Below, in pieces: positions 3,107 to 27,296 of a stretch of 27,296 nt of DNA. The stretch's first letter is position 1. Every line of letters starts with the position of its first letter. The DNA is from a virus. The stretch is from positions 1 to 27,296 of the IMG/VR virus record IMGVR_UViG_3300017739_001823; one strand, given 5' to 3'. Both the position numbers and the translations under genes were made by a program. Under the pieces are notes generated by a model. The model searched no databases, had not been told where the DNA came from, and saw only the letters and a program-made list of their open reading frames with translations.

Positions 3107-3346
3107 TTACTTGTAGCTTGAACGGTAGCCGTTGTTATTCTTCGGCTTTTTGTTTGGCTTCATGCCACCTTTATTTACTTTTCTTTTTTTCTTTTTCGGA
3201 TCTTTTGACCCATGACTTGCACCATACGGCATATCTTTTCTCCTATTTTTTTGGTTATGTGCCATTATTGATGTCGCAATAGCAAAATAACCAGTTGCTA
3301 TTGTTAATATAACAGGTATTAGGAATTCATGGAAGAACTCTGTCAT
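3107..3346 (-). CDS. Small membrane protein with a very basic tail
   Basis: A 79-residue protein with no recognised family. Residues about 8-28 form one hydrophobic membrane segment; the remaining C-terminus is packed with Lys, Arg, Asn and Gly and should be cytoplasmic and nucleic-acid- or phospholipid-binding by charge. I choose the ATG at 3346 because it overlaps the upstream stop as ATGA, typical of translational coupling in this operon; a longer start at 3370 lies inside the upstream gene. It is the last gene of the leftward operon. Confidence 0.65.
   Translation of the reverse strand: MTEFFHEFLIPVILTIATGYFAIATSIMAHNQKNRRKDMPYGASHGSKDPKKKKRKVNKGGMKPNKKPKNNNGYRSSYK
3127..3151 (+). terminator. 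Possible rho-independent terminator after the lysis module
   Basis: AGCCG (3127-3131) can pair with CGGCT (3143-3147) across an 11-base loop, followed by a run of five T. It lies 20 bases past the last plus-strand gene, inside the 3' end of the convergent gene. The stem is short, so this is weak. Confidence 0.3.
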
Positions 3347-3882
3347 TTCCACAGAGGGCCACCGTACCAAGCGACCAAACTGTATCTTGTGCCTTTGGTT
3401 ACACCAGTAACACTATGAGACAAAAAAGAAGGGAAAATAATCATTGAGCCTTGTTCAGATAATTCTTTTGGTGGTGTGGGTGTGTTAGAGAATACCAACT
3501 CACCACCTTCGTAATCATTTAATTCACTTAGTTGAACTGTAACACTTAATTTTCTTGCATACATTTCTTTTGTTTGAAACAAATCCATGTGCCAGTCGTA
3601 ATGACAATTTGTGTCATATTTCGCAATCTGAAACTCAACACAATTCAAATTTATATCAAAGCCAAATATGTGATTGTTTGCTTGGTCAACATATGGGTCA
3701 AGCAAACTTTTGAATTTACCCCATAAAGGGTGACCAAAGGGAATACCCATGACCTCACTATCCCTGATGGCAGAAAGTGTATTCCCTTCGGTCTTGGCAC
3801 GGACAGGCTTTGCGTATAGGCCTATTACTTCTTCACAAACTTCTTTTGTGAAGGGCCTGTCACCCCACCAATAACTTATCAT
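3343..3882 (-). CDS. 2OG-Fe(II) oxygenase, prolyl-4-hydroxylase-like
   Basis: A 179-residue double-stranded beta-helix dioxygenase that should couple oxidative decarboxylation of 2-oxoglutarate to hydroxylation of a substrate. The iron-binding His-x-Asp is in YDWHMD (about residues 94-99), the distal His is in FLSHSVTGV, and the 2OG-binding Arg is in KGTRYSLVAWY. The EGGELVF stretch is typical of the P4H/PKHD branch. Similar enzymes are frequent in marine phage genomes. The substrate is unknown: protein prolyl or lysyl residues, a small molecule or a nucleic acid are all possible. It overlaps both neighbours by 4 bases. It is unrelated in sequence to the TET/JBP-type dioxygenase at 10042. Confidence 0.88.
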   Translation of the reverse strand: MISYWWGDRPFTKEVCEEVIGLYAKPVRAKTEGNTLSAIRDSEVMGIPFGHPLWGKFKSLLDPYVDQANNHIFGFDINLNCVEFQIAKYDTNCHYDWHMDLFQTKEMYARKLSVTVQLSELNDYEGGELVFSNTPTPPKELSEQGSMIIFPSFLSHSVTGVTKGTRYSLVAWYGGPLWK

Positions 3883-9163: not shown

Positions 9164-9219
9164 AAAAAAAAGCGAGGGGGTTTATAGGCCCTATGGTGAA
9201 AAGGGACCAAAGGTACCAA

Positions 9220-9432
9220 ATGAAGCTAAGAGAATATTTAAAACAGGAACAGATGACACAATACGCATTTATTGAGTTGATTGAGATGGCGACTGGTAAA
9301 ACTGTTCCACAAGGCACTTTAGCAAAATGGATTTTAGATGTGCGTGTGCCTAGAAAGAATGACATGGAAATGTTATTCAGAGTTACTGACGGCAAAGTTC
9401 AGCCAAATGATTTTTATAATTTAAAGGAGTAG
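9220..9432 (+). CDS. Small XRE/Cro-like HTH regulator
   Basis: A 70-residue protein. KLREYLKQEQMTQYAFIELIE, then GTLAKWILDVRVPR, then MEMLFRVTDGKVQPNDFY is the five-helix Cro/CI-type pattern: MTQYAF forms the first helix of the HTH and GTLAKWI the recognition helix, with PRKNDMEMLFRVTDG typical of the third and fourth helices. I prefer the ATG at 9220, with AAAGG six bases upstream, over 9193, whose purine run is too far away. It is the first gene of the rightward operon and probably binds the divergent region to control early versus modification genes. Confidence 0.75.
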   Translation: MKLREYLKQEQMTQYAFIELIEMATGKTVPQGTLAKWILDVRVPRKNDMEMLFRVTDGKVQPNDFYNLKE

Positions 9433-9434
9433 AT

Positions 9435-10061
9435 ATGGCATTTAAAGTAGTATTGCAAAACATCAATGATTTAATTGAGTACGAAGATAACCCAAGAAAA
9501 AATGAGGAAGCAGTTAGCAAAGTAGCTGACAGTATTAATACTTTTGGATTTAAAACACCAATTGTTGTTGATGAGGATAATATTATTCTTGCCGGTCATA
9601 CCAGATTGAAAGCAGCAAAGTTATTAGGCATGAAAAAAGTTCCTGTTCATGTAGCATCAGATCTGAGTGAAGAACAAAAAAGAGCATATCGTATTATGGA
9701 TAATAAGTCAGGTGAGGCAGCAGATTGGGATAATGATTTATTGTCAAAAGAGTTTCAGAATCTTGCAGAAACAGATTTTGATATGATGATGACTGGTTTT
9801 GGTGAGAGTGAGATACAAAAGCTAACAAGCGACATTTTAGAGTTTGAGCCTGCAGCTAACGCAAACTTTGACGAGAACTTTGCTTCACTTGATGATGTTC
9901 AACAAAGTAATGTTCGTATGGTAAACTTATTCCTGAATACTGAGACTGAGCCTGTATTTCAAGAGATGGTCGGATCGCTAAAAGAAAAATGGGCCCAAGA
10001 AAATTTAACAGATACAGTATATGAGGCAATAAAGCGATGTTATGAAAACACTAACACTTAA
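9435..10061 (+). CDS. ParB-like nuclease-fold protein (ParB/Srx superfamily)
   Basis: A 208-residue protein with an N-terminal ParB/sulfiredoxin-fold domain: LIEYEDNPRKNEEAV (13-27), INTFGFKTPIVV, and the nucleotide-binding GHTRLKAAKLLGM (54-66). The C-terminal half is acidic and helical with no known domain. In phages this domain often accompanies or is fused to DNA methyltransferases and other base-modifying enzymes, not partition. Members may use nucleotide hydrolysis or bind DNA. GGAG precedes the ATG, and the 3' end overlaps the TET/JBP gene by 20 bases, so the two are coupled. A targeting or regulatory role in DNA modification is inferred. Confidence 0.85.
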   Translation: MAFKVVLQNINDLIEYEDNPRKNEEAVSKVADSINTFGFKTPIVVDEDNIILAGHTRLKAAKLLGMKKVPVHVASDLSEEQKRAYRIMDNKSGEAADWDNDLLSKEFQNLAETDFDMMMTGFGESEIQKLTSDILEFEPAANANFDENFASLDDVQQSNVRMVNLFLNTETEPVFQEMVGSLKEKWAQENLTDTVYEAIKRCYENTNT

Positions 10062-10956
10062 ACCAAAATACAGTTTTGAGGAAGCAAAGAAACGGTCAGG
10101 TGAATGGATTACTGAAGATGATTTCAGTATATTGATTGAGGAAGATTGCGATGCTTATGATGAAGAAGGCAACCCACTTTTCTTTTTTAGAAAGAATGCC
10201 ATACCAACCAATCTATGTCGTGATGCTTACTATGTGCTTCGTCATGCAGCCACTCCTACAAACAATAGAGGTGCAGCCGGTGGCATCATATCTGATGAAA
10301 CAAAAAAAGATTGGGATATCGGAGACATCACAAAAGTCAGAGTAAAACTGCTTAAGAAAGATGGCACACTTTCCAATACCAATAGAGCCAATACGGTCAA
10401 CTCAGGCATTGTAGGATATTTTGACAGAAATGTTAGATTTCCGTATTGCAGACAAACAGCATGGACTGAAAAAAACTTTGACCAGTTTAGAGACGCATAT
10501 CCATATATTAAATACATAGACAAACTTTTTGAAGAAGCCTGTCCGGAAAGATACCGTGCACAGAAAGCTATGGCAGATAAAACATCCGATGATTTTGTTA
10601 TTGGTGATACGGCTTTCACAACTGTGACAGTAAATAAAAATTTCAGGACTGCACTTCATACTGATGCAGGAGATTACAAAGGTGGACTGGGTAATTTAGC
10701 AGTATTGGAGGCCGGTAAGTATGAGGGTGGTTATACAGCCATACCAAGATATGATGTTGGCTTCAATGTTAGATCTGGAGATGTCTGTTTCTTTAATGTG
10801 CATGAGTTTCATGGCAATACAGAACTAAAATCAAAACTTGCCTATGAAAGAATCAGTATTGTGTGTTATTACCGTGAGAATATGTTTCATTGTCTTGATG
10901 CCGAGAAGGAGTTTGAACGAGCAAAGGCGAGAGAGAAAGGTGATGCATTAACTTAA
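10042..10956 (+). CDS. TET/JBP-family DNA-methyl dioxygenase
   Basis: A 304-residue 2OG-Fe(II) dioxygenase that should oxidise the methyl group of 5-methylcytosine (TET type) or thymine (JBP type) in DNA to hydroxymethyl. The family hallmark NRGAAGG is at 75-81, iron ligands are His206 and Asp208 (LHTDAGD), the distal His is 254 or 257 (FNVHEFHGN), and the 2OG-anchoring Arg is probably 270 (YERISIVCYYR). LEAGKYEGGYTAIPRY lies between them, as in this family. It is the second gene of a modification operon containing a kinase and an aGPT-type transferase that normally act on 5-hydroxymethyl-uracil, which favours thymine as substrate, but a cytosine substrate cannot be excluded. Confidence 0.85.
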   Translation: MKTLTLKPKYSFEEAKKRSGEWITEDDFSILIEEDCDAYDEEGNPLFFFRKNAIPTNLCRDAYYVLRHAATPTNNRGAAGGIISDETKKDWDIGDITKVRVKLLKKDGTLSNTNRANTVNSGIVGYFDRNVRFPYCRQTAWTEKNFDQFRDAYPYIKYIDKLFEEACPERYRAQKAMADKTSDDFVIGDTAFTTVTVNKNFRTALHTDAGDYKGGLGNLAVLEAGKYEGGYTAIPRYDVGFNVRSGDVCFFNVHEFHGNTELKSKLAYERISIVCYYRENMFHCLDAEKEFERAKAREKGDALT

Positions 10957-10959
10957 TTT

Positions 10960-11376
10960 ATGGGTAAAAATAGAAATCTTAAACATCATAATGATTGGCA
11001 AACACCACCAGAGTTTTATGAGCAGTTAGATAAAGAGTTCAATTTTGATTTTGACCCATGTCCGTTACACGCAGACTTTGATGGACTTACAATAGAATGG
11101 GGACAAAGAAACTTTATCAATCCACCATATAGTCGTAAACTCAAAGAGGCTTTTGTAAAAAAAGGCATTCAAGAATCTAAGTTTGGCAAGTTATGTGTAT
11201 TCATTCTGCCTGTAAGCACAAGCACAGAGTTATTTCATGATTATATTCAACCTAATGCTAAAGATATTAGATTTGTGCGTGGCCGTTTGAAGTTTAAAGG
11301 TTTAAATGGATCCGGTCATATAGAGACCAAAGGTACTGGTATGCATGATTCTATGATTGTTATATTCGGAGAATGA
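10960..11376 (+). CDS. Phage Dam-type N6-adenine DNA methyltransferase
   Basis: A 138-residue SAM-dependent methyltransferase of the phage Dam/DNA N-6-adenine-methyltransferase family. The signatures are DWQTPPEFY (12-20), FDPCP (31-35) and the catalytic NPPYS (54-58); the SAM-binding site follows the DPCP pattern. It is short, as usual for this family. The target sequence cannot be read from the protein. It would add a second, adenine-directed mark to the phage DNA. It lies three bases after the dioxygenase gene and one base before the amidotransferase gene. Confidence 0.88.
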   Translation: MGKNRNLKHHNDWQTPPEFYEQLDKEFNFDFDPCPLHADFDGLTIEWGQRNFINPPYSRKLKEAFVKKGIQESKFGKLCVFILPVSTSTELFHDYIQPNAKDIRFVRGRLKFKGLNGSGHIETKGTGMHDSMIVIFGE

Positions 11377-11377
11377 T

Positions 11378-12046
11378 ATGTGTGCAGTAATAGGTTTACA
11401 TAGCAATGATTTCTTAGATATGAATATGCTTCGCAGTGTATTAGACCAGTCTATGATTAGAGGTAAACACGCAACAGGTATTGCTTACATAGATGACGGA
11501 CTTATCAAGTGGAAGATACTCCCAACTCATGCAAAAGATTTCGTATTACCTGATATACAAACGAAACAATTGATTGCTCATTGTCGTTATAGCACTTCCG
11601 ATTTGGACTGGAATCAGCCAATGTATAGTCAAGAGCATCAGGTAGCACTTGTTCACAACGGAGTCATCACACAAGCATCTCCTGAATCTTGGCCTGAGAC
11701 TTATGGTTATGACTTTGCCACAAAATGCGATAGTGAGATTGCTATGCGTATGTGGATAGATGATAAACACCCACTTGAGTTAGGTGAGGATAGTTCCATG
11801 TCCTGTGTAGTATTAGACAATAGAGCTAACAAACCTTATATGCATTTTTTTAGAAACAACCAACGACCTTTATATTATGCCGTGCAATCAAACACAACAA
11901 TAGTTGCATCAACAAGAGATATTATGATGAGATCTGGCATCACTCCTGACACAATCAGAAAAACTGATATGTGCAAGTCTTATAAAATCTCTGACGCACA
12001 AATTACTTATTCGGAGATTAATCTTGCCACTGAAGACTTACAATGA
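11378..12046 (+). CDS. Class II glutamine amidotransferase (Ntn hydrolase)
   Basis: A 222-residue GATase_6-type glutaminase domain. I start at the ATG at 11378 because it puts Cys at position 2, the N-terminal nucleophile exposed after Met removal; GGAG lies just upstream. Other conserved motifs are RGKHATGIA, AHCRYSTSD with the glutamine-binding Arg, LVHNGVI and CDSEI. The family hydrolyses glutamine and passes ammonia, or a glutamyl group, to a partner. No synthetase domain is attached, so the acceptor must be another protein or the base adduct. Within a base-hypermodification operon, ammonia or amide transfer to the modified base is plausible. Confidence 0.88.
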   Translation: MCAVIGLHSNDFLDMNMLRSVLDQSMIRGKHATGIAYIDDGLIKWKILPTHAKDFVLPDIQTKQLIAHCRYSTSDLDWNQPMYSQEHQVALVHNGVITQASPESWPETYGYDFATKCDSEIAMRMWIDDKHPLELGEDSSMSCVVLDNRANKPYMHFFRNNQRPLYYAVQSNTTIVASTRDIMMRSGITPDTIRKTDMCKSYKISDAQITYSEINLATEDLQ

Positions 12047-12638
12047 AGAACAGATAGCAGAACTGCTCTCAAAACAACCAGAGGGCCGTTACACTAAGTT
12101 TTTTAGACAGGCCCATAGTCTTTGGACTAGATTTAAAAATTACTCTAAGAATCCACCATTTGTTTATTTTGATAAAGGCCGTGAGGTTGCACTTATTTAT
12201 TCAACATTAAGCAAAAAAACTGGTTATACAAACCTGTATGAGATTTTTACTCTTGAAGGCCAGTCTGGTAGAGGATATGGAAGTATTATTTGGGCAATAT
12301 GGCAAACTCAAATGTGGGCATCAGGTGCAGAAAGAATGAAACTATCATGCACACCAGACTCAATAGGATTTCACATGAAGAACGGTCTAGTATTTTGGTC
12401 AGTTGATAAGTCTGGAAGTTTAAGGTCAGACCAACCAATTATGCAAGATGTTCAAAAACAAAAGATATTTAGAGAAAAAGCAATCACAGATCCAAGTATT
12501 GCACTGCCATCACAGAAAGTTCGTGACAGATTAAAGAAAGAAGATATTGAAAACTTAGATTTATCACAGAAAAAACTTATACAAACTTACGAGGCAATAC
12601 AAAAGACAGGTGATTTTTGGTTGCGTAAACATTTATGA
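12024..12638 (+). CDS. GNAT-family N-acetyltransferase
   Basis: A 204-residue protein with a GNAT core around residues 45-125: a beta strand (EVALIYSTL), YEIFTLEGQ, the acetyl-CoA pyrophosphate loop QSGRGYGS (80-87), a helix, and the closing IGFHMKNGLVFW. It should transfer an acyl group from CoA to an amine. The start is a TTG at 12024 with GGAG seven bases before it and no in-frame ATG until far downstream, so this rare start is well supported. It overlaps the amidotransferase by 23 bases. A GNAT beside an amino-acid:DNA transferase suggests acetylation of an amine on the modified base. The C-terminal helical tail is of unknown role. Confidence 0.75.
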   Translation: MPLKTYNEEQIAELLSKQPEGRYTKFFRQAHSLWTRFKNYSKNPPFVYFDKGREVALIYSTLSKKTGYTNLYEIFTLEGQSGRGYGSIIWAIWQTQMWASGAERMKLSCTPDSIGFHMKNGLVFWSVDKSGSLRSDQPIMQDVQKQKIFREKAITDPSIALPSQKVRDRLKKEDIENLDLSQKKLIQTYEAIQKTGDFWLRKHL

Positions 12639-13588
12639 AAGACCTAAGACATAAAGACAGTAGAAAAGATGCATTCATAGAATGGGCCTGTTGGTCTTTA
12701 ACTTACAAAGATTGCGATCCGGCTCTTTGGTTGCTCAATTATTTGTTTGATAGATATGAACATAATCTTGAGCAAAAATATTGGATTGCTTGGATATATG
12801 GAACGACATATCACTTACCAACAGCATGGATTATATGGAATGAGTTTCCAGACTTTGAGTTGGTTGATTTAGATCGTATTAAAGATTGGAATGATAAAAA
12901 CTATAAAAGACTAAGATACCAAACAGATACAAAGTGGAATAAAGGTCATTTACCGGCACAATACGAGAGTTATCACAAATGGGTGCATTATAAGAATCCA
13001 ACAGGTAAACAAAGAGATAAATTTAGCAAGTTCACATCTTTTGCAGATGCTTGGAATAATATTGCAACATTACACAAGTTTGGAAGATACAGCACATGGT
13101 TTTATATGCAAACTTTAAAAGATTGTGTTGGTGTTCCGTTTGAGCCGTCAAATTTACTCCTGAGTGATTATTCAGGATCCAGAAGCCACAGAAATGGTTT
13201 ATGTTTTGCTATGGGCCTAGATGAATGGGTTGACAAAAAGTTATCAAGTCCGAATATAAGATTATTAGAAATGTATGGTTATCAATTGAGAGATGAGATA
13301 AACAGAAAAGGTTTTGATATGGATTTTTATGAAATGGAAACTCTTTTGTGTAGTTTCAAAAAGATATTCAGGACAAGTCATGGCCGTTATCTTGGCTATT
13401 ATTTAGACAGACAAGCAGAAGAAATAAGTAAAGTTGAGGCTGATGGTTGGGCCGGTATAGATTGGGAAGTGTTTTGGGATGGCAGAAACGAAACATTGGA
13501 AAAGAAACTTTCAACAAGCAAAACAATACGCAAAGATTTATACACACATTTTTTAGATAAAGGTAATTTGAATTATGGCACGGTATAA
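12635..13588 (+). CDS. aGPT-PPlase-like amino acid:DNA transferase
   Basis: A 317-residue helical protein that I recognise as the alpha-glutamyl/putrescinyl thymidine pyrophosphorylase-like family. The diagnostic N-terminal region holds LNYLFDRYE, then WIAWIYGTTYHLPTAW and NEFPDFE (about 34-75); a second conserved stretch is FGRYSTWFYMQTLKDC (about 149-164), and LLLSDYSGSRSHRNGL follows. In thymidine-hypermodifying phages such enzymes displace the phosphate installed on 5-hydroxymethyl-dU by the DNA kinase and attach an amino acid or amine. Its start overlaps the GNAT stop as ATGA and its end overlaps the kinase by 14 bases, so GNAT, transferase and kinase are translated together. The attached group is not predictable from sequence alone. 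Confidence 0.85.
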   Translation: MKDLRHKDSRKDAFIEWACWSLTYKDCDPALWLLNYLFDRYEHNLEQKYWIAWIYGTTYHLPTAWIIWNEFPDFELVDLDRIKDWNDKNYKRLRYQTDTKWNKGHLPAQYESYHKWVHYKNPTGKQRDKFSKFTSFADAWNNIATLHKFGRYSTWFYMQTLKDCVGVPFEPSNLLLSDYSGSRSHRNGLCFAMGLDEWVDKKLSSPNIRLLEMYGYQLRDEINRKGFDMDFYEMETLLCSFKKIFRTSHGRYLGYYLDRQAEEISKVEADGWAGIDWEVFWDGRNETLEKKLSTSKTIRKDLYTHFLDKGNLNYGTV

Positions 13589-14114
13589 AGCAGTAGCAAT
13601 TGGTGGTGTTCCGGCCACAGGCAAATCAACACTTATGAAACAAATAATATCTACAAAAGGCACAAAAAGTCTGACCTCTTGGAAATATGGATTGATCAAT
13701 GGTTATTTGTTAGATGATGTTTGTGTCATAGGAACTTATCCTGCTAACGAGACTTTTGGTGGTACGGATCGTCTATCAATGGCATCACCAGTAGATATGA
13801 TGAAGTTTATGGATTTTAATAAATATAGTTTTATCTTTGAGGGTGACAGATTGTTCACAAAGAAAATACTTACCAAAGCAAGTAAGTTGTTTGATTTAAA
13901 AATTATCATATTAGAGCAATCTGATGAGACATTAAAAGAAAGACATATATTGCGTGGCGACACACAATCAGAGAAGTTTTTAAAGGGCCGTAAAACAAAG
14001 ATACAAAATATCAAAGAAGATGAGGCAGTCAAAGATTTAATACAGTTATATACACTTGAGGAATTCAAAGACACTGACCACCTCACAAAAGAAATTATCA
14101 GTTATCTTTGGTGA
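13575..14114 (+). CDS. P-loop 5-hydroxymethyl-dU DNA kinase
   Basis: A 179-residue P-loop kinase. Walker A is GVPATGKS (11-18). Further motifs are GGTDRLSM (62-69), reminiscent of the substrate loop in phage 5-hmdU DNA kinases, FEGDRLF (88-94), and the C-terminal lid Arg residues (KERHILRGD). These kinases phosphorylate the 5-hydroxymethyl group of hydroxymethyluracil in DNA, activating it for the transferase encoded just upstream. It is the last gene of the rightward operon and runs 17 bases tail-to-tail into the convergent primase-helicase gene. A generic small P-loop kinase is possible, but its place next to an aGPT-type gene makes the DNA kinase call strong. Confidence 0.82.
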   Translation: MARYKAVAIGGVPATGKSTLMKQIISTKGTKSLTSWKYGLINGYLLDDVCVIGTYPANETFGGTDRLSMASPVDMMKFMDFNKYSFIFEGDRLFTKKILTKASKLFDLKIIILEQSDETLKERHILRGDTQSEKFLKGRKTKIQNIKEDEAVKDLIQLYTLEEFKDTDHLTKEIISYLW

Positions 14115-24118: not shown

Positions 24119-24568
24119 ATGAAAGATTTAGCAAATAATATCAAAATGGTTCAATCACTTGCTCCTGCAGTTGTCAGTTCTGACACAAATGGATCCGGTG
24201 TGGACTTACTTGGATTTGAGTCAGCTTCAATTGTTGTTGATACAGGTGCAGAAGGTGTAACACTTTCTTCATCAGTCAAGATTGATTTCAAACTTGAAGA
24301 ATCAGACGACGATAGCACATATACTGCAGTCACAAGTAATGACTCAGTATCAGACGGTGCAGTTGATTCAAACGGTATATTCTTAACATTAGATGACAAT
24401 GCAGAGTCACCGCAGATAATGACCATAGGTTATCTCGGTAGCAAAAGGTATATAAGAGTTGTGGCAGATCTAACAGGGTCTCACTCAACAGGTACCGCAA
24501 TGTCAGCATCTGTTATTTTAAGTCATGCCAGACATAGTTCTGATGCATCTTCAAATTCAGATAGATAA
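24119..24568 (+). CDS. Probable head accessory/decoration protein
   Basis: A 149-residue, beta-rich, acidic protein placed directly after the capsid gene. Segments GFESASIVVDTGAEG, KLEESDDDSTYTAV and GYLGSKRYIRVVADLTG look like an Ig-like or jelly-roll sandwich, of the kind found after many HK97-type capsid genes. A decoration or head-completion role is inferred from position and composition only. GTAGGTGA precedes the start, and a strong hairpin follows the stop. Confidence 0.6.
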   Translation: MKDLANNIKMVQSLAPAVVSSDTNGSGVDLLGFESASIVVDTGAEGVTLSSSVKIDFKLEESDDDSTYTAVTSNDSVSDGAVDSNGIFLTLDDNAESPQIMTIGYLGSKRYIRVVADLTGSHSTGTAMSASVILSHARHSSDASSNSDR

Positions 24569-25077: not shown

Positions 25078-25428
25078 ATGGCTGCAGGATTTCATCATTT
25101 CATAATAGAGCAAGGAGCAACATTTAAACATGTTCTGACTCTAAAAGACTCAAGCGACACAGTAATAAATCTAACAGGTTTTAGTGCTGAAATGGACTTG
25201 AGAAAAAATCAAGATGATACATCAGAAGTCATAACATTAACCGTAGCAAATGGCAGAGCAACAATGGGTGGTGCTGCCGGAACAATCACATTAGAAATAT
25301 CAGCCTCAGACACAGCCTCACTAACAGTTGGTGATGGTGTTTACGACATTAAACTTACAGATTCAAATAACAAAGTAGATCGCATACTTGAAGGCACATA
25401 CTCAATAAGAGGTAATGTCAGCAGATGA
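25078..25428 (+). CDS. Small beta-rich tail/fibre-associated protein
   Basis: A 116-residue beta-sandwich-like protein: QGATFKHVLTLKDSSD, INLTGFSAEMDLRKNQ, ANGRATMGGAAGTITLEISAS and VYDIKLTDSNNKVDRILEGTY. This order (LTG...R, NG...G.I.L.IS, YDI.L) matches small phage proteins encoded beside tail fibres or baseplate-attached proteins. Its stop overlaps the fibre start as ATGA, so the two are coupled. Structural role is inferred. Confidence 0.65.
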   Translation: MAAGFHHFIIEQGATFKHVLTLKDSSDTVINLTGFSAEMDLRKNQDDTSEVITLTVANGRATMGGAAGTITLEISASDTASLTVGDGVYDIKLTDSNNKVDRILEGTYSIRGNVSR

Positions 25429-27296
25429 GTATAGTCAAAAAGATAACTATAACAGGCCCAAATGATATTTCTGTCATAACAGTTGGCACACAGGGAGCGA
25501 CTGGAGGTGCCGGTCAAAAAGGTGAAACAGGACAAAAGGGCCAGACTGGAGCAGACTCAACTGTTCAAGGCCCAACTGGTGCAAAAGGAGATAAGGGCCA
25601 GAAGGGTGAAGTCGGTGTAACTGGTAATACTGGTAGCACTGGTAACACCGGAGATAAAGGACAAAAGGGAGAAGTTGGCAGTCAGGGTGATAAAGGCCAA
25701 AAGGGTGAAGTTGGAGCGACAGGCTCTAAAGGACAAAAAGGCGAAGTTGGTGTAACAGGATCCCAAGGAGATAAAGGCCAGAAAGGAACGACAGGAGATA
25801 CTGGAGCGACTGGTAGTAAGGGTCAGAAAGGAACAACTGGTGATACTGGCTCACAAGGAAATACTGGAGACAAGGGCCAGACAGGAACTACTGGTGATAA
25901 AGGTCAGAAAGGCACGACTGGAGATAAAGGACAGAAAGGAGAGGTTGGTGTTACAGGAAACACTGGTGCAACTGGTGATAAAGGCCAGAAGGGAGAAAAG
26001 GGCCAGAAAGGTTTGAAGGGCCTTCAGGGTAATTTTGGTGGCCAAACAGTTCAATACAACTTTTCAACAAACACAACAGACAATGACCCAACTGCCGGTA
26101 TATTAAAATTCAACAATGCTAACTTATCATCAGCATCACAAATGTTTATTGATGATGAGGACCAAGCATCAACTGACATACAGGCATATCTAAGAACTAT
26201 TGATGATTCAACATCAACCATAAAAGGCCACATAAGAATATCAAACAAGACTGATGCAACAGACTTTGCATTGTTTCAGATCGGTGGCTCTATTACTGAG
26301 GCAACAGGATATTTCAAAGTACCAGTATCTTATTTAAGTGGTGCAACATCTTTCAGTAATGCCGAAGAACTAACGGTAACTTTTGCAAGAACTGGAGACA
26401 TAGGTGATACAGGAGCAAAAGGACAGAAGGGTGAGACAGGCTCTACTGGAGCCGGTGGTAGTAAAGGCCAAAAAGGTCAAACTGGAGTTACCGGTGATAC
26501 TGGTCCTTCTGGCTCTACTGGTCCGAGTGGGTCAGATGGCAGTAAAGGTCAAAAAGGTGAGATTGGGCCGACAGGTAATAATGGGTCTAATGGAACTGAT
26601 GGAGACAAAGGTCAGAAAGGAGAGCAAGGACAATCAATAACTGGCGACAAAGGACAAAAAGGTACGACTGGCGATACTGGTGCAACCGGCCCTGCAGGAA
26701 ACAATGGAACAGACGGCACAAAAGGACAGAAAGGCGAGATTGGAGCCGGTGGTGATAAGGGCCAAAAAGGAGAAAGTGGCTCAGACGGTAATGATGGGAA
26801 TGATGGATCTGCCGGAAGTAAAGGCCAGAAGGGTGAGGCCGGAACTAATGGAACAAATGGCTCTGATGGGGATAAAGGACAGAAAGGTGAGATTGGTGTT
26901 ACTGGTCCAACAGGCCCAACTGGAAGTGGCTCTCAAGGTGATAAAGGACAGAAGGGCCAATCTGGAAATGATGGCTCAAATGGTAATGACGGAAACAAAG
27001 GACAGAAAGGCCAATCAGGAACAAATGGAAGCGATGGCGATAAAGGACAAAAAGGAGAAATAGGTGCTAGTGGTCCTGCCGGATCTGATGGTAATGATGG
27101 CAGTAATGGAAGTAAGGGTGAGAAAGGCCAAAAAGGTGTTACTGGAACAACAGGTGATGCCGGAGCAACAGGACCTCAAGGAAGCACAGGCCCTTCCGGT
27201 AATGATGGTAGCAAAGGTCAGAAAGGACAGACAGGAGGTGATGGGCCTTCTGGATCTACTGGCGACAAAGGTCAAAAGGGAGAAGTTGGAAATACA
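25425..27296 (+). CDS. Collagen-like fibre protein, 3' end cut by window edge
   Basis: An open frame of 624 codons with no stop before the window edge. After a 20-residue head, residues 21 to about 205 and about 324 to the edge are Gly-X-Y repeats forming a collagen-type triple helix, with a non-repeat globular insert of about 118 residues between them. The repeats favour GDKGQKGE-like units: Lys in the Y position and acidic residues, the charge pairing that stabilises bacterial collagens without hydroxyproline; Pro is scarce. Trimeric collagen-like fibres occur in phage tails and bind hosts. It is the last gene seen and overlaps the upstream gene by 4 bases. Confidence 0.92.
   Translation, partial: MSIVKKITITGPNDISVITVGTQGATGGAGQKGETGQKGQTGADSTVQGPTGAKGDKGQKGEVGVTGNTGSTGNTGDKGQKGEVGSQGDKGQKGEVGATGSKGQKGEVGVTGSQGDKGQKGTTGDTGATGSKGQKGTTGDTGSQGNTGDKGQTGTTGDKGQKGTTGDKGQKGEVGVTGNTGATGDKGQKGEKGQKGLKGLQGNFGGQTVQYNFSTNTTDNDPTAGILKFNNANLSSASQMFIDDEDQASTDIQAYLRTIDDSTSTIKGHIRISNKTDATDFALFQIGGSITEATGYFKVPVSYLSGATSFSNAEELTVTFARTGDIGDTGAKGQKGETGSTGAGGSKGQKGQTGVTGDTGPSGSTGPSGSDGSKGQKGEIGPTGNNGSNGTDGDKGQKGEQGQSITGDKGQKGTTGDTGATGPAGNNGTDGTKGQKGEIGAGGDKGQKGESGSDGNDGNDGSAGSKGQKGEAGTNGTNGSDGDKGQKGEIGVTGPTGPTGSGSQGDKGQKGQSGNDGSNGNDGNKGQKGQSGTNGSDGDKGQKGEIGASGPAGSDGNDGSNGSKGEKGQKGVTGTTGDAGATGPQGSTGPSGNDGSKGQKGQTGGDGPSGSTGDKGQKGEVGNT
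25485..26040 (+). repeat. First Gly-X-Y (collagen) repeat block
   Basis: Nine-base periodic coding repeat with frequent near copies of GATAAAGGCCAGAAAGG. The GGN codons set the period. A second block runs from 26394 to the window edge; 26041-26393 encodes the non-collagen insert. Confidence 0.85.
26394..27296 (+). repeat. Second Gly-X-Y (collagen) repeat block, continues past the edge
   Basis: Same collagen-type periodicity as the first block, with more Asn and Asp (GNDG, GTNG, GSDG) and the recurring KGQKGE unit. Direct repeats at DNA level make this region prone to slippage and to misassembly. Confidence 0.85.

Follow-up and report, generated by a model that had tools for sequence, protein, structure and literature searches.

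The DNA analysed here, called the window throughout, comes from a marine phage and is the entire IMG/VR virus record IMGVR_UViG_3300017739_001823 (27,296 bases), which has no end repeats and is therefore probably a fragment. Between positions 9435 and 14114 it carries seven open reading frames (ORFs) for a ParB-like protein, a TET/JBP-type dioxygenase (TET), a Dam-type methyltransferase (Dam), a class II glutamine amidotransferase (GAT), a GNAT acyltransferase, a member of the amino acid:DNA transferase family (ADDT) and a P-loop kinase. The original prediction, made from the letters of the sequence, read this set as a DNA base-hypermodification operon. This reading is supported, and the locus is very probably a DNA hypermodification cassette.

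Gene content and conservation of the cassette

The seven ORFs were confirmed to lie head to tail on the + strand at the predicted coordinates, neighbours overlapping by no more than 23 bases or standing a few bases apart. They are listed below with the small ORF that precedes them.

9193..9432, + strand: putative Cro/XRE-like small regulator, first gene of the operon (Cro-like by eye; nothing above noise in Pfam)
9435..10061, + strand: ParB_N-domain protein (PF02195, 7e-8; phrog_620, 7e-54)
10042..10956, + strand: TET/JBP-type 2-oxoglutarate (2OG)-Fe(II) dioxygenase (Tet_JBP PF12851, 5e-25)
10960..11376, + strand: Dam-type N6-adenine methyltransferase (PF05869, 1e-15; NPPY motif)
11378..12046, + strand: stand-alone class II GAT, predicted glutaminase (GATase_6 PF13522, 4e-11)
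12024..12638, + strand: GNAT acyltransferase, filling the interchangeable slot (sub-cut-off Pfam match, 0.007; structure model; homologues)
12635..13588, + strand: ADDT (PF18724, 4e-19)
13575..14114, + strand: P-loop DNA/nucleotide kinase (Ploopntkinase3, 1.1e-5, below the Pfam cut-off; Walker A GGVPATGKST)

The predicted families hold for all seven proteins. Matches to ParB_N, Tet_JBP, Dam, GATase_6 and ADDT exceed the Pfam cut-offs, while GNAT and the kinase fall just below them and are assigned through their homologues, 11 of 14 matching Acetyltransf_1 (PF00583) for GNAT and 10 of 16 matching Ploopntkinase3 for the kinase. One member of the kinase set matches HMUD2, and the Walker A core is invariant among the homologues. 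In addition, the AlphaFold model of GNAT (predicted local distance difference test score, pLDDT, 94.8) retrieves GNAT structures in Foldseek (best E 1e-6; 459 matches at E <= 0.001). The model of ADDT (pLDDT 89) has a single confident structural neighbour, the gp46 glycinyltransferase of Pseudomonas phage PaMx11 (8z2m/8z2n; probability 1.00, TM 0.53-0.58, E 0.009). In TET, the HxD...H iron ligands (H206-x-D208 and H257) and the 2OG-binding arginine R270 are invariant in an alignment of 18 sequences; a PHROG match of this protein to queuine transferase looks like a misannotation. PF18724 is presumably the family formerly called aGPT-PPlase2, and the proposal that a kinase and an aGPT-type transferase form the core of the locus stands.

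Relatives were taken from viral contigs and scored by profiles. The gene order ParB, TET, GAT, slot, ADDT, kinase recurs in dozens of marine viral contigs, and the cluster is therefore not due to chance. Around 55 distinct ADDT sequences, GAT lies upstream in every locus with enough sequence (43 of 43), TET in 33 of 35 and ParB in 28 of 30 testable loci, and the kinase follows downstream in all 50 that could be tested. ParB adjoins TET in nearly all cassettes. As judged from coordinates, the exceptions for TET and ParB appear to be the very divergent contigs L109 and L110, which are counted among the carriers of the cassette order; their TET sits on a long branch and is encoded about 5 kb upstream, and a long ORF just before ADDT shows ParB-like motifs by eye, unconfirmed by Pfam. 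The order within the cassette is constant while flanking genes shift strand and position, and homologues of the Cro-like ORF stand upstream of ParB in several relatives (e.g. L010, L011 and L021). Dam was considered as a core member and rejected, since it is confined to the window and to contig L009, which is nearly identical to it, TET and GAT adjoining directly elsewhere (-13 to +8 bp apart in 54 other cassettes). The conserved unit is thus six genes, one slot of which is interchangeable. The 'seven-gene' operon of the original prediction exists as seven ORFs, but with Dam as a private insertion.

The predicted stand-alone glutaminase and the interchangeable slot

The start of GAT was corrected from TTG 11357 to ATG 11378 (MCAVIG...), because the Met-Cys start is conserved and exposes the catalytic cysteine. 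Of 60 aligned homologues, 59 have a cysteine at position 2, and in the last it is lost to a contig end or gap. The class II amidotransferase signature is present, with Cys directly after Met together with the glutaminase Arg, Asn, Gly and Asp residues, and C2, R28, R70, N94, G95 and D118 are conserved in cassette-type homologues. None of the window proteins ADDT, kinase, TET and GAT had a relevant match in PDB sequence searches, and PDB profile searches with ADDT and TET were of no help, in contrast to the GAT profile, which matched PurF/GlmS structures (3e-8 to 1e-4). The protein has 222 amino acids and no fused ammonia-receiving synthase domain, so its partner must act in trans. Among the window ORFs scanned, no Pfam match to QueC or a transglycosylase was found.

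Between GAT and ADDT, the slot holds a GNAT of the window type, an amidoligase-like protein with a different GNAT (PF13673, 3e-13), or nothing. The amidoligase-like gene occurs in 14 of 59 cassettes, and its product has weak matches only (phrog_2443, 1e-4; PF12224, 0.008, below cut-off). A tree built from 59 TETs requires at least 11 changes of slot type, the flanking cassette genes being unchanged when the type changes; the sister contigs L017 and L059, for instance, have near-identical TETs and different slot types. The slot looks like a site at which finishing enzymes are exchanged while the core stays constant. In the cassettes where it is empty (L066, L068 and L077), GAT is intact although no slot enzyme is present, which places its partner in the TET/ADDT/kinase core.

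A natural swap bears on the same question. In one lineage, represented by L036 and L045, GNAT and ADDT are replaced by proteins of 262 and 273 amino acids. The former matches the glycinyltransferase 8z2m (5e-11) and the ADDT-domain structure 25qc (2e-19), the latter the flavin-dependent lyases 8z2o and 8z79 (about 1e-11), and by analogy the pair would constitute a route to 5-aminomethyl-deoxyuridine (5-aminomethyl-dU). The GAT of this lineage lacks R28, G29, T73, N94, G95 and D118, catalytic residues that are intact in 58 of the 60 aligned copies. That the active site was lost precisely in the lineage with the exchanged transferase connects GAT to this transfer step. ParB, TET and the kinase are still intact there, and the retention of the last two ties them to the supply of a phosphomethyl substrate. 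The analogy is suggestive of an active GAT and the cassette ADDT together doing the job of a glycinyltransferase and a flavin lyase. The degenerate GAT of L045 (L045:10906-11511) persists as an intact ORF of 202 amino acids without the glutaminase residues, and may have retained a structural role.

Substrate base, proposed route and alternatives

The base on which the cassette acts can be approached through the enzymes that are missing. Neither the window nor any of the cassette-bearing records searched (<=55.8 kb) has a match to the C5-cytosine methyltransferase family PF00145. Thymidylate synthase (PF00303) is likewise without a match in the window and without an above-cut-off match in these records, and both families are absent from the related complete Pelagibacter phage HTVC112P. 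Since PF00145 and a convincing PF00303 are absent, TET would have to supply the 5-hydroxymethyl group, and these absences together with the swap in L036/L045 favour thymine as its substrate. Thymine is probably the modified base. Residue D211 of TET, tried as a marker of thymine versus 5-methylcytosine, was uninformative, being found also in the TET of Methylophilales phage Melnitz, the genome of which has a C5-methyltransferase.

Several phages carry related arrangements around TET. HTVC112P (L002:5375-7597) has ParB-TET followed by an FkbM-type methyltransferase, with no adjoining GAT, ADDT or kinase. In Nonlabens phage P12024L (L003:6001-8618), a cultured phage, a TET-associated glycosyltransferase (PF20691, 4e-21) comes directly after TET and the 35.7-kb genome has no C5-methyltransferase, making it a candidate for a base J-like system. 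In Melnitz (L008:4010-8090), the genes for a C5-methyltransferase, TET and a kinase homologue of 38% identity are clustered, possibly as the cytosine counterpart of the cassette.

In the route proposed here, ParB, the putative partner of TET, would load or target the system on DNA, and TET would convert thymine into 5-hydroxymethyluracil (5hmU) within DNA. The P-loop kinase would phosphorylate the hydroxymethyl group, giving 5-phosphomethyl-dU (5-PmdU), on which ADDT is placed as a transferase because its nearest solved fold is a 5-PmdU glycinyltransferase. GAT would hydrolyse glutamine and pass the ammonia to ADDT, which would displace the phosphate with it to form 5-aminomethyl-dU. The slot enzyme would then finish the amine, the window GNAT probably yielding 5-acetamidomethyl-dU; elsewhere, finishing may be carried out by the amidoligase-like protein with the other GNAT, or be omitted. 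The modified base might protect phage DNA from nucleases. Whether the ammonia of GAT is used at the ADDT step is evenly balanced. The route as a whole, a post-replicative thymine-hypermodification cassette with an ammonia-fed ADDT, is put forward tentatively, as a reading held with somewhat under even confidence. The most specific form of the idea, to be held a shade more loosely still, is a glutamine-dependent DNA aminase, in which the glutaminase would feed an ADDT-family protein that aminates the phosphorylated 5-hydroxymethyl base made by a thymine-oxidising TET, 5-aminomethyl-dU serving as an anchor for interchangeable acylating modules.

Some observations weigh against this proposal. Relatives of ADDT elsewhere are known as transferases of amino acids, not of ammonia, and the Pfam score of the kinase does not reach the cut-off. 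One record, G002, has a weak, sub-threshold PF00303 match (13 bits). All cassette contigs come from uncultured phages, are linear and may be incomplete, so that a C5-methyltransferase gene might lie outside the sequenced part. Finally, the exchange for a glycinyltransferase and a lyase is a single event in a single lineage.

The alternatives differ in what ADDT transfers, in the base and in the role given to GAT. With the same entry through thymine, ADDT might add a whole amino acid (glutamate, aspartate or glycine), GAT later amidating or trimming its side chain and GNAT acylating the remaining amine. The name of PF18724 and the match of ADDT to the glycinyltransferase fold agree with this, as does the natural occurrence of glutamyl/glutaminyl thymine as a phage base (PMC11550810). 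However, a carboxylate is as a rule amidated by a synthetase that consumes ATP, the minimal cassettes L066, L068 and L077 consist of ParB, TET, GAT, ADDT and kinase only, and the lineage with a glycine-type transferase is the very one whose GAT lost its active site; transfer of a whole amino acid is accordingly judged unlikely, if still worth serious attention. Less probable again is a cytosine base, for which host or phage 5-methylcytosine would be oxidised by TET to 5-hydroxymethylcytosine and then phosphorylated and decorated. Characterised phage TET systems do work with C5-methyltransferases, as described in PMC12730594, and that of Melnitz adjoins TET and the kinase homologue, but PF00145 is absent from the cassette-bearing records, HTVC112P and P12024L, and the enzymes swapped into L045 are homologous to enzymes acting on 5-PmdU.

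Two further readings are very improbable. GAT could belong to a peptide/amidoligase module and be a mere neighbour of the DNA-modification genes, given that its homologues adjoin amidoligase/COOH-NH2 ligase genes in other phages (Shrooms, 1.262.O) and that some cassettes have the amidoligase-like gene described above; yet most cassettes are without it and all have GAT with its residues intact, directly after TET and not swapping along with the slot. Alternatively, TET could take thymine to 5-carboxyuracil, the kinase form an acyl phosphate and ammonia from GAT produce a 5-carboxamide, and this scheme, no more credible than the preceding one, draws on the stepwise oxidation possible for TET enzymes (PMC12730594) and on acyl phosphate being, from general knowledge, a classic ammonia acceptor. 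Against it, a carboxamide is no good GNAT substrate, and L045 keeps TET and the kinase beside homologues of enzymes that use 5-PmdU.

If the ammonia-fed route is correct, it would be a second way to an aminomethyl base, using ammonia instead of glycine and a flavin lyase, and a second entry to thymine hypermodification, by oxidation in DNA as opposed to a modified nucleotide pool. Moreover, abundant marine phages would possess a DNA-labelling system that is modular by nature, and with it a new means of disguising DNA from bacterial defences. Enzymes that oxidise thymine would attract broad interest if they exist beyond the kinetoplastid JBPs.

The rest of the window is described briefly. Promoter and terminator scans gave only background level, no named phage matched the region by megablast, and the terminase large subunit has only scattered phage relatives (identity <= ~48%). 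A scan with the ADDT profile over bacterial and archaeal genome contigs found no confirmed relative and identified no host or prophage. At the left end (2-1051, +), a class III nucleotide cyclase domain (PF00211, 1.8e-20) looks phage-encoded, because a related contig (L034:240-2027) has a 595-amino-acid CHASE2-cyclase protein adjoining the same phage genes. A second 2OG-Fe(II) oxygenase (3343-3882, -; PF13640, 2.5e-16) lies outside the cassette. An ORF adjoining the capsid gene (24119-24568, +) has a weak match to retropepsin-like aspartyl proteases (0.002), its homologue in L022 being without a Pfam match, and a long collagen-repeat protein (25425-27296, +; PF01391, 7e-70) runs past the right end.

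Relation to known hypermodification systems

In PaMx11, the glycinyltransferase gp46, the flavin-dependent (FAD) lyase gp47 and the acetyltransferase gp48 are encoded adjacently, followed by gp49-50 and the thymidylate synthase gp51. The pathway, which presumably also includes a kinase, resembles the cassette in its ADDT-type transferase fold, its acetyltransferase and the step-by-step elaboration of a 5-hydroxymethyl base within DNA, as proposed for the cassette. However, PaMx11 derives the 5-hydroxymethyl group from a thymidylate-synthase-type enzyme and the cassette would derive it from TET, a flavin lyase stands where the cassette has a glutaminase, and the GNATs differ. More generally, of the components of M6/ViI/PaMx11-type pathways, the cassette has the ADDT/AADT transferase and, in place of the thymidylate-synthase-family dUMP hydroxymethyltransferase, TET. 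Caulobacter phage Cr30 has TET, ADDT (about 30% identity) and a kinase within about 9 kb, but GAT was not found there, a TAGT-like glycosyltransferase lies between and the genome has a thymidylate-synthase homologue. Iyer and colleagues reportedly predicted in 2013 that hydroxymethyl pyrimidines generated by TET serve as starting points, anticipating TET-primed hypermodification, and work by Lee in 2022 is said to have anticipated combinatorial thymidine hypermodification.

Phage systems combining TET, C5-methyltransferases and glycosyltransferases (Burke et al. 2021, cited in PMC12730594) share the TET-primed modification in DNA; they start from 5-methylcytosine, whereas the cassette has no C5-methyltransferase match and uses a kinase and ADDT, not glycosyltransferases. 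ParB-domain proteins accompany phage carboxymethyl-cytosine systems (PMC12783734). Class II GATs are not without precedent in phage base modification: in Gat-QueC of phage 9g, the glutaminase domain takes part in forming the dG+ base (PMC6884629); there, GAT is fused to QueC and serves 7-deazaguanine chemistry, in contrast to the stand-alone GAT beside a pyrimidine pathway described here. The literature search, with subscription papers mostly outside its coverage, found no earlier report of a glutaminase paired with ADDT, and this pairing and the swapping of the slot appear new. The original prediction overstated the novelty of combining TET, a kinase and aGPT-PPlase2, which already occurs in the five-gene system of Rhodococcus phage Tonitrus (ParB, TET-like, aGPT-PPlase2, 5hmU kinase and a hypothetical protein; PMC11955845), but the glutaminase part appears new. 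It was right that the end product, which is probably unusual, does not map simply onto a described modified base. Tonitrus thus has ParB, TET, an ADDT-family protein and a kinase side by side as in the cassette and, by its description, no reported glutaminase or acetyltransferase (PMC11955845), and what appears novel here is that a glutaminase is always present and that the slot is modular.

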